Assembly: GCF_000003815.2 (NCBI RefSeq)
Contig: NC_049983.1
Span: 15,393,060-15,457,059, forward strand
Source of the DNA: Branchiostoma floridae
Lineage: Eukaryota; Chordata; Leptocardii; Amphioxiformes; Branchiostomatidae
Length of the DNA: 64,000 nt
Reading direction: 5' to 3'
Part shown: positions 61,601 through 63,823 of the stretch, in pieces
How the letters are laid out: each line of letters opens with the position of its first letter
How positions within the stretch are numbered: the stretch's first letter is position 1
The notes under the pieces: model-generated
Told to the model about the DNA's origin: nothing
The model's database searches: none
The model's input: the letters and a program-made list of their open reading frames with translations, nothing else
Translations under genes and position numbers: made by a program

Positions 61601-63823
61601 CTGGACCTAATTGTCCGTAAAACTTGTGAATGGGCAATACTTAATATAATGGTCCATTTTGCTACAAAGGAATCTGTTTGATGGAGTATCCTACTCATAC
61701 TATCATCATGTAAACAACTTAAATGTCTCTGTTAACCTAGACCTAGTTTGACTGTACAAACTTAGTAAAAATTACTCAACTCTCCTCCACTTTGCTCATT
61801 GTTTTCTCGGACCTGTCAGCCCCAAAACATGCGAACGCCTGCCTGTACAGTATGTTCATTTTCCAATCAGTCCAACATCTGGTCCACTGATTTTTTTTCA
61901 GGTCTGGTTTTCCTGGACCGGTCTAACAAAAAAACGGTTTTGTACAGGTACACCGAATCGGTACCCACGCCTGATCTTCACCATAATGCCTCCTACTAAC
62001 TGCCCATGGCTAACTTGCCAAAACTCAGGACCTACATGCAGTACTTCATCTCTAAGCAGATGTTTGAAAGCAAAATCAATTTACTCTCCTCGTTTTAGTT
62101 ACAAACTGCCTCCAAGCGATCGTTGGCACTGGACAAATCATATCTGTTACAAACTGCTTTCCTCAGAAACATGGAGCTGGGAAAATGTAACAATTTGGCC
62201 TCTCGTCATCCGCTTGGTTAGTACATGCTTCACTCGGGCACTTCTGATCTAGACTGTCTACTACATGCTGGTAGTCTTGAACAACATATTAGCATCATTT
62301 AAACCAAATCAGTGACAGTTTCAAAATAGGGTGTCTCAGAAGTTTGCATGTCTTTTACAAATGAATCAATATAATTCAGCAGAAAAAATGAGAGATTTCA
62401 GTACCTCAATACTTTTTTTGCATAAATGTATTGAAAGAAGTAATAAAGTAAGGCTAAATAGGTCAATTTTCATAATAACAATTTCTTTTTGTACGCAAAA
62501 TAAGCACCTACACTACCAGCCTACAAATAAAACTAACTTTAAATTCAAAAGAACATGCACACTTCTAAAACTATCCTGTAACTAGAAATGTGTCAATCAC
62601 AATTGTACTGACCGGCCAAACCCCCTACCAGCAAGTGGTAGACTCCAACCTTCAGGCATGAGTTTGTCAGTGTCGCCTGATTTGGGCTCACTGAAAGCAA
62701 AATACGGGGGTGGTCAGGGTGTTGATTTCCTACTGGGCAGTTGGGAAGAAGCACTACAGGAACACTAGAAGAAATGTACACATCTAAATCTACCATAAAA
62801 AAGGGCAATTTTACAAATCAGATTTGAAATACTACTTTTTGGCAACAAAGATAGAAAAAATTAACAAGGAAATAGTGACTGTACATTGTACTATAGAAAG
62901 CATGGCTATTCTATCCGAGTGACACTTGTGTATACATTATCATACATTTTGACACATAAAACACTACAAAAAATCCAAAAGTCTTCACATGCATAGGTGT
63001 TAGACAATATACACGTACAAAAAATGGTCTCTTCTACTGTAGTTGTGATGTTTAGGAGTGCAAACATGGATGTCGTTAGTGGTTAGGCGGCTTGAAGTGG
63101 CAAGGGAAGTGAAAAATGTGGGGTGAGCTTCGGCAGAGCAGCAAGCAAAGGAGGGTGGATAGAAAGGCAGCGTTGGAGAGGTTTCTCGCAACATGGTCGC
63201 TTCTGGCTTCTTTTGTGTATCGGTGGTTCGGACTATCATTACTCACAAATGAGACCCCCCAAAAGGTCTTTTCTTCCCAATATTACAGCACTTTCTTAAA
63301 AATCTTGGTACAGAAAATATGCTACAGTTCAATAATGTAACAAATCTTGTTGCGGAAAATACTTTCAAAAAGAAACTAACAGTTTGAATCATCTGTGCAG
63401 TTTATGAATGTGCAGTGTACAACAAGTGATACTCATCAAATGGTATACTGGTTGGTGGATACAAATTGTATTTGTGTACAGTTTGCATCAAATAACTTAA
63501 AATAAATGAACACAGTGGCAAACATTTGCATTTTGCAGTTTGCCCTGTTTTTGGAAATGCTGTTTTTCGCAGCATTTCCTTCCCGAAACAACAACCAAAA
63601 GGAAGCCAGAACCAACCATGCCGCAAGAAGCCCCTACCGGCCAGTAAATGTATGCTGGGACGTCTTACTCGTGCTCATAATCAGGTGGGTACTTTCTAGG
63701 CCTGCCCCGCTTAACGTGGTGTCGCTTTTTAAATTCCTCATCATCCACTGTCCAATACGAGCCGAAACTGTCCTCAAGTCTTTGAAAGCAAGAGTGAACC
63801 GACAAATTGTAGCGTACAGCGTT
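58484..63823 (-). CDS. foxp: FoxP forkhead transcription factor, last four exons, 5' partial
   Basis: Exons 63823-63669, 61456-61390, 59465-59338 and 58607-58484 join in phase (breaks after codon position 2, 0 and 2) into 157 residues and a stop. FoxP proteins are zinc-finger/leucine-zipper/forkhead repressors acting as dimers in the nucleus. The first exon begins exactly where vertebrate FOXP genes split the domain, NAVR at the recognition helix. The later exons give NLYAANINANLQ then ATLAENNLPLLSS, matching the FOXP segment NASLQ/AALAESSLPLL, and a Glu-rich tail with VQVKVEQ like the HVKEEP end. Earlier exons lie beyond the right edge. The forkhead exon is the alternative isoform type; no canonical counterpart is in the window. 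Confidence 0.92.
58983..59150 (+). repeat. Relic of the 41258 element, split by a second insertion
   Basis: TAGTTACTGCTTTTTGGTAT and ATTACCTGGATGTCTAATCT match one arm and the tail of the element at 41258-41385. The sequence is interrupted at 59031-59134 and resumes with ATCTTCATCAACAGATG. Confidence 0.7.
59031..59134. mobile_element. ~104-bp hairpin MITE nested in another repeat, inside FoxP's last intron
   Basis: CTGGGTACCATCCGATTTCT pairs with AGAAATAGGATGGTACCCAG, and CTTACACTCGCTA with TAGCGAGTGTAAG. AATCTTCATC directly flanks both sides (59021-59030 and 59135-59144) as a 10-bp target duplication. A one-armed relative is at 16209-16263. Confidence 0.85.
59151..59318. repeat. Minisatellite, ~16-17-bp unit, about ten copies
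   Basis: GCTCACACACGAAAAC-type units with CACGTGAAAATGCTCACA variants run in tandem. The array ends about 20 bases from the FoxP donor at 59337, on its intron side. The His/Thr/Lys-rich frame across it is an artefact. Confidence 0.9.
59338..59465 (-). CDS. foxp: FoxP penultimate exon
   Basis: Acceptor CCTTCCCCAG and donor ATGTAAGT enclose 128 bases. It starts in phase 0 with ATLAENNLPLLSS, the best-conserved FOXP tail motif, and ends SEEESPH plus two bases of the next codon. Confidence 0.92.
59466..61389 (-). other. FoxP intron
   Basis: AT-rich with no exon-like sequence on the - strand that fits FoxP. The + strand frame at 61135-61356 has no domain. Confidence 0.6.
61390..61456 (-). CDS. 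foxp: FoxP small exon with tandem CAGCAG acceptor
   Basis: It codes SRGMGVVPDHNLYAANINAN followed by LQ and ends in phase 0 at donor GTAGGC. YAANINANLQ corresponds to the vertebrate GAALNASLQ block. The acceptor is CAGCAG, so the exon may begin at 61456 or 61453. Confidence 0.85.
61457..63668 (-). other. FoxP intron
   Basis: About 2.2 kb. I looked for a second forkhead exon ([13 protein letters not shown]-like) on the - strand and saw none. Frames at 61986-62252 (+) and 62593-62808 (-) do not match FoxP. Confidence 0.6.
63669..63823 (-). CDS. foxp: FoxP alternative forkhead exon with AT-hook-like motif
   Basis: Acceptor CTGTGTCTCGCAG leads into NAVRYNLSVHSCF, then FGSYWTVDDEEF and KRGRPRKYPPDY. 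The exon has 51 codons plus two bases and ends at donor GTAAGA (63668-63663). Fused to the next exon, the split codon gives Asp. FGS(F/Y)W..VDD and RGRPRKY are the marks of the alternative FoxP isoform exon known in Drosophila and mammalian FOXP1, unlike the canonical [13 protein letters not shown]. If the donor is skipped, the frame ends two residues later at a TAA. Confidence 0.9.

Follow-up and report, generated by a model that had tools for sequence, protein, structure and literature searches.

Background

Forkhead domains contact DNA bases through a histidine in their third helix (helix 3), and the alternative splicing that affects this part of FoxP reportedly arose at the base of Bilateria (Santos et al. 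2011). In mammals, exon 18b of human FOXP1 (16b in the mouse) takes the place of exon 18, so that the frame is kept and forkhead residues are altered, and FOXP1 is described as preferring GTAAACAA and FOXP1-ES as preferring CGATACAA, according to a review (PMC11701043). In Drosophila, the primers published for FoxP exon 8 (isoform B) translate to Thr at the His site and to WMVDDN, and the amplicon positions give a 24-residue span from Asn to Trp, both counted (PMC4070984, PMC7776582). The fly FoxP isoforms are further described in another report as having an alternative last exon and alternative stops (PMC6372147).

Here we describe a stretch of the lancelet Branchiostoma floridae that is, very probably, an alternative and mutually exclusive helix-3 exon of the single FoxP gene, swapping the second half of the forkhead domain. 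The window is the whole stretch of DNA analysed, 64,000 nt in length (G000:C5:15393060-15457059); coordinates above 64000 are given in the same numbering (window-frame) and lie past its edge, where the DNA was fetched and read. Genome searches covered 513,431,437 bases in 431 contigs, and the FoxP gene model was built by tblastn with segments of FOXP2.

Results and discussion

Identity of the probable alternative exon

The exon and the elements within and beside it are as follows.

63669..63823, minus strand: alternative FoxP exon of 155 nt, with helix 3, the strand and wing region, and a basic tail
63824..63845, minus strand: polypyrimidine-rich stretch and acceptor AG of the alternative exon, from reading of the sequence
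63809..63811, minus strand: codon TAC, the Tyr replacing the helix-3 His by PDB alignment (CAC in the canonical exon)
63692..63712, minus strand: KRGRPRK, an AT-hook-like basic stretch (Pfam AT_hook 13.4 bits, E 0.073)
63663..63668, minus strand: donor GTAAGA, with an in-frame TAA, from reading of the sequence

The exon begins at codon phase 0 with a peptide that starts NAVRYNLSVHSCFQRLEDSFGSYWTVDDEEF, and its full minus-strand translation is NAVRYNLSVHSCFQRLEDSFGSYWTVDDEEFKKRHHVKRGRPRKYPPDYEH plus two bases of a last codon that is cut by the splice site. The acceptor reads CCGCCCTGCCTGTGTCTCGCAG before the exon's first bases, AACG, and at the other end CACGA is followed by the donor GTAAGA; its TAA is what looks like a stop codon, and up to it the exon can be read as 52 residues. 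Compared with PDB chains, the exon was closest to human FOXP2 (E 3.6e-9), with the FOXP2, FOXP4, FOXP3, and FOXP1 chains spanning E values of 3.6e-9 to 1.3e-7 and the best non-FOXP chain, FOXC2, at only 0.0038; the match is thus far beyond chance and FoxP-specific, and another Fox gene was rejected as the source of the exon.

The earlier note had read a FoxP exon here with Tyr in place of the base-contacting His, and both parts of this reading held: the sequence is present at 63669..63823 on the minus strand, and the Tyr aligns exactly to the His of the FOXP2, FOXP4, and FOXP3 chains shown. We take this site to be His554 in FOXP2 numbering. Asn, Arg, Asn, Leu, Ser, and His are kept at positions 1, 4, 6, 7, 8, and 10 of the helix, while Leu has become Val, Lys has become Ser, and the wing is rebuilt. 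By itself the exon scored 23 bits against the Pfam forkhead profile, below the cutoff of 27, and when spliced in silico to its neighbours the alternative forkhead reached 69.7 bits and the canonical one 79.1, both above that cutoff, with FOXP1-4 as the nearest forkheads.

Uniqueness in the genome

A genome search with the canonical exon recovered that exon (E 5.6e-22), the alternative exon (2.9e-8), and then a next match at only 0.0054; matches with an E of at most 1 numbered 19, and 20 candidates were scored. These two sites were the only FoxP-type helix-3 exons in the search, and a second FoxP copy was rejected since none was present among the 20 candidates. The Pfam Forkhead search of the genome gave 42 matches (46 candidates scored), which cover helix 3 in 33 cases and not in 9; the alternative exon, at 23 bits, is not among them. 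The His is kept in 31 of the 33 helix-3-covering matches, which are not wholly independent because four of them (L018-L021) have an identical helix, and the remaining two (L040 and L041) are degenerate.

Two of these groups merit a separate description. L040 (G000:C19:7232593-7232814) and L041 (G000:C6:5693521-5693739), which lie on different contigs, resemble each other; both are degenerate forkhead-like stretches, the open frames around them span 432 and 458 aa, and their helix 3 reads AQSVCRVLSTHKCF. L018-L021 (G000:C14:16451228-16509301) are four forkhead matches that score equally against Pfam and have an identical helix 3; they are spread over 58 kb on both strands and may stem from a recent expansion at this locus or from the assembly. 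In collections without animal genomes (viral_contigs and genome_contigs), no relative of the alternative exon was confirmed.

Canonical exon and predicted layout of the FoxP gene

The earlier note had suggested looking beyond 64000 for a canonical exon, and one was found there, in the same gene, 580 nt 5' of the alternative exon. Its presence rules out the possibility, raised in that note against its own reading, that 63669-63823 is simply the only, fast-evolving forkhead exon. The remaining parts of the predicted gene, in order of transcription, are listed below.

70822-70745 (window-frame), minus strand: FoxP zinc-finger exon (tblastn with FOXP2, E 4.4e-12)
70288-70196 (window-frame), minus strand: FoxP zipper exon (tblastn with FOXP2, E 1.5e-11)
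Ends at 65900 and 65206 (window-frame), minus strand: forkhead exons upstream of the canonical exon (from FOXP2 segments)
64404-64525 (window-frame; G000:C5:15457463-15457584), minus strand: canonical helix-3 exon of 122 nt, with His (CAC)
61390..61456, minus strand: predicted shared downstream exon of 67 nt, ending ...NINANLQ
59338..59465, minus strand: predicted shared downstream exon of 128 nt, reading ATLAENNLPLLSS..., with splice-like ends

The canonical exon is 88% identical to the human exon and is without the KRGRPRK stretch, and the gene has the C2H2 zinc finger and leucine zipper of a FoxP upstream of the forkhead. At the 3' side, a first motif search did not find the next exon after the alternative one. 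A scan restricted to matching phase gave 9 candidate rows, among which the exon at 61456-61390 was chosen on the ground that its NINANLQ end resembles ...LNASLQ in FOXP2; the same scan also permitted an acceptor at 61453, a donor at 61366, and candidates at 62764 and 62051. The exon at 59338..59465 reads ATLAENNLPLLSS..., similar to QAALAESSLPLLSN in FOXP2, and its tblastn similarity to FOXP2 is weak (71% over 14 aa, E 0.23; 40% over 48 aa, E 0.15). A motif search for FoxP C-terminal exons 3' of 59338 found none.

Directly past this last predicted exon lies a minisatellite (59150-59316; 16-nt units, 10.7 copies). Farther on, at about 26 kb 3' of that exon, the window holds a single open frame with a forkhead (32373-33704, minus strand; 115 bits to Pfam Forkhead), which we take to be FoxQ2-like and which is perhaps FoxQ2III. 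One report locates FoxQ2III near FoxP in B. lanceolatum and likewise in lamprey and skate (PMC12828049). Toward the other edge, the window includes an open frame with Kelch repeats at its very border (3-908, plus strand; 146 bits to Kelch_1) and a fragment of sialyltransferase family 29 (2845-3288, minus strand; 50 bits).

Frame logic and rival readings

The two helix-3 exons, of 122 and 155 nt, both begin at phase 0 and both have a length of 2 modulo 3, and therefore only the inclusion of exactly one of them keeps the frame of the following sequence. Scripted joins to the flanking exons behaved in this way: the canonical exon alone gave 139 residues and the alternative exon alone 150, each open to the last joined exon, while joins with both exons or with neither shifted frame and then ran into stops. 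The downstream exon had itself been picked by this phase, and its fit is partly by construction because the scan required it; the independent part is the agreement of 122 and 155 modulo 3, which has a chance of one in three. For these reasons the frame lock backs, without proving, exclusivity, and the layout supports a reading of the two exons as a mutually exclusive pair.

A terminal rather than internal use of the exon would yield an isoform that stops at the TAA (...YEHE*) and has no shared C-terminus, which we consider quite improbable. The in-frame stop does follow directly, fly FoxP isoforms do use an alternative last exon (PMC6372147), and the downstream exons here are predictions with weak similarity; yet the stop sits inside the GTAAGA donor, where any GTAAG donor in this phase would yield an in-frame TAA, and the exon length agrees modulo 3 with that of the canonical exon. 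Within 2.2 kb past the exon, moreover, there are no AATAAA or ATTAAA poly(A) signals, where 2.8 would be expected from base-shuffled sequence, which disfavours terminal use; phase and the absent poly(A) signal together favour the internal reading. That the exon is a tandem copy of the canonical one, now out of use and decaying, is hardly credible. The two are identical at 22 of 38 residues (58%) and the His is gone, as such a copy might be expected to look, but the frame is open, the splice sites are intact, the phase matches, and the VDD and the spacing are common to fly exon 8. Between the two exons pS is 0.80 (23 sites) and pN 0.34 (91 sites), and the lower pN, although the synonymous sites approach saturation and the pairwise value mixes both copies, suggests constraint since the duplication.

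A further reading overlaps with our preferred one, in that the exon would be spliced in and the resulting isoform, without specific DNA binding, would act on the canonical protein as its dominant partner; we regard it as somewhat unlikely. The absent His contact and the position of the zipper exon upstream of the choice would fit such a partner, and Santos et al. 2011 are said to have proposed lower specificity for the alternative isoforms. Against it, the helix is largely retained, with its Asn and Arg, and a basic AT-hook-like tail is present. FOXP1-ES, moreover, binds a motif of its own according to the review (PMC11701043).

Candidate splicing regulators

In mammals, MBNL represses FOXP1-ES (PMC4978528). 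The intron preceding the alternative exon showed no enrichment of MBNL-type YGCY motifs (13 vs 9.15 in shuffled sequence, P = 0.087; best 60-nt cluster, P = 0.23). The intron after that exon has 31 vs 22.9 (P = 0.02), with a cluster of 6 per 60 nt at 63172 (P = 0.007), a signal that is weak given 35 motif tests and 5 cluster tests. The RBFOX-type motif TGCATG occurs 10 times in the four introns between 65205 and 59466, which total 5,396 nt (1.85 per kb), against a background of 0.50 per kb on the same strand of a 111 kb region, and is dense in three of these introns.

TGCATG sites: 62993, 62559, 62040, 60877, 60214, 60206, 60137, and 60100, and, in window-frame coordinates, 65070 and 64576

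The canonical acceptor has one of these sites 51 nt ahead of it, and none is present in the intron between the canonical and alternative exons or in a fifth, further 5' intron. As this motif was chosen after scanning seven, its density is only a lead.

Possible function and significance

With 63669-63823 read as an alternative, mutually exclusive exon, its choice over the canonical one would replace the second half of the forkhead domain and produce a FoxP isoform in which the zinc finger, the leucine zipper, and the first forkhead half are unchanged and the reading head is another. The change of His to Tyr, together with Leu to Val, Lys to Ser, and the rebuilt wing, would remove the usual His contact, and the GTAAACA preference may be changed or relaxed in this isoform, although the Tyr could still contact DNA. 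Mixed dimers of the canonical and alternative isoforms are conceivable because the dimerisation parts are common to both.

The basic tail may contribute as well. KRGRPRK scored 13.4 bits against Pfam AT_hook in the exon and 12.3 bits in its spliced context, and since both values are below the cutoff of 17.4 the stretch does not qualify as an AT-hook by that profile; judging from its letters, we hypothesize that the tail may act as one, adding a minor-groove contact that could make up for lost specificity. More speculatively, the isoform might be a two-part reader, with a Tyr-bearing forkhead helix of its own major-groove preference and the AT-hook-like tail holding it in the adjacent AT-rich minor groove. 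Splicing would then turn FoxP from a specific reader of GTAAACA into a chromatin binder with other targets, and the chordate ancestor would already have had this arrangement, a full scenario that we consider unlikely.

With the frame lock, an all-or-nothing switch is to be expected, and the Tyr and the AT-hook-like tail are concrete and testable changes in DNA reading. The lancelet, in which one FoxP gene was found, lies outside the vertebrate FOXP1-4 duplications, and the exon pair is therefore a natural test of the pre-duplication role of the stem-cell form of FOXP1. Among the papers listed by a literature search on amphioxus FoxP isoforms, none treats them by title or by the start of the abstract, and no priority is claimed for the exon. 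The class of alternative FoxP exons is already known; of interest in this one are its Tyr, its basic tail, and a layout predicted to be internal and vertebrate-like.

Comparison with known systems

Given the changed helix-3 DNA-contact residue (Tyr for His here, Thr in the fly) and the common VDD, the exon is most likely a member of the known class of alternative FoxP exons that includes fly isoform B and FOXP1-ES. The proposal of the earlier note that an ancient alternative exon is kept in this chordate gains support from the fly exon-8 primers, with Thr at the same site, the same Trp spacing, and VDD. As far as the published primers and amplicon positions of isoform B go, the His is replaced in both animals, VDD stands for VDE, and the 24-residue spacing from Asn to Trp is that of both lancelet exons, with Thr in the fly and Tyr here as the difference; in both, too, the downstream exon of the pair is the non-canonical one, fly exon 7 being presumably the canonical form. 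The fly isoforms use an alternative last exon (PMC6372147), whereas the exon here is predicted to be internal. AT-hook proteins have an RGRPRK core in common with the tail, but here the motif is single, scores below the Pfam cutoff, and stands beside a forkhead. The likeness to mammalian FOXP1-ES, drawn from the published description of exon 18b, is in the use of an alternative forkhead exon in place of the canonical one with the frame kept, as predicted for the lancelet gene.
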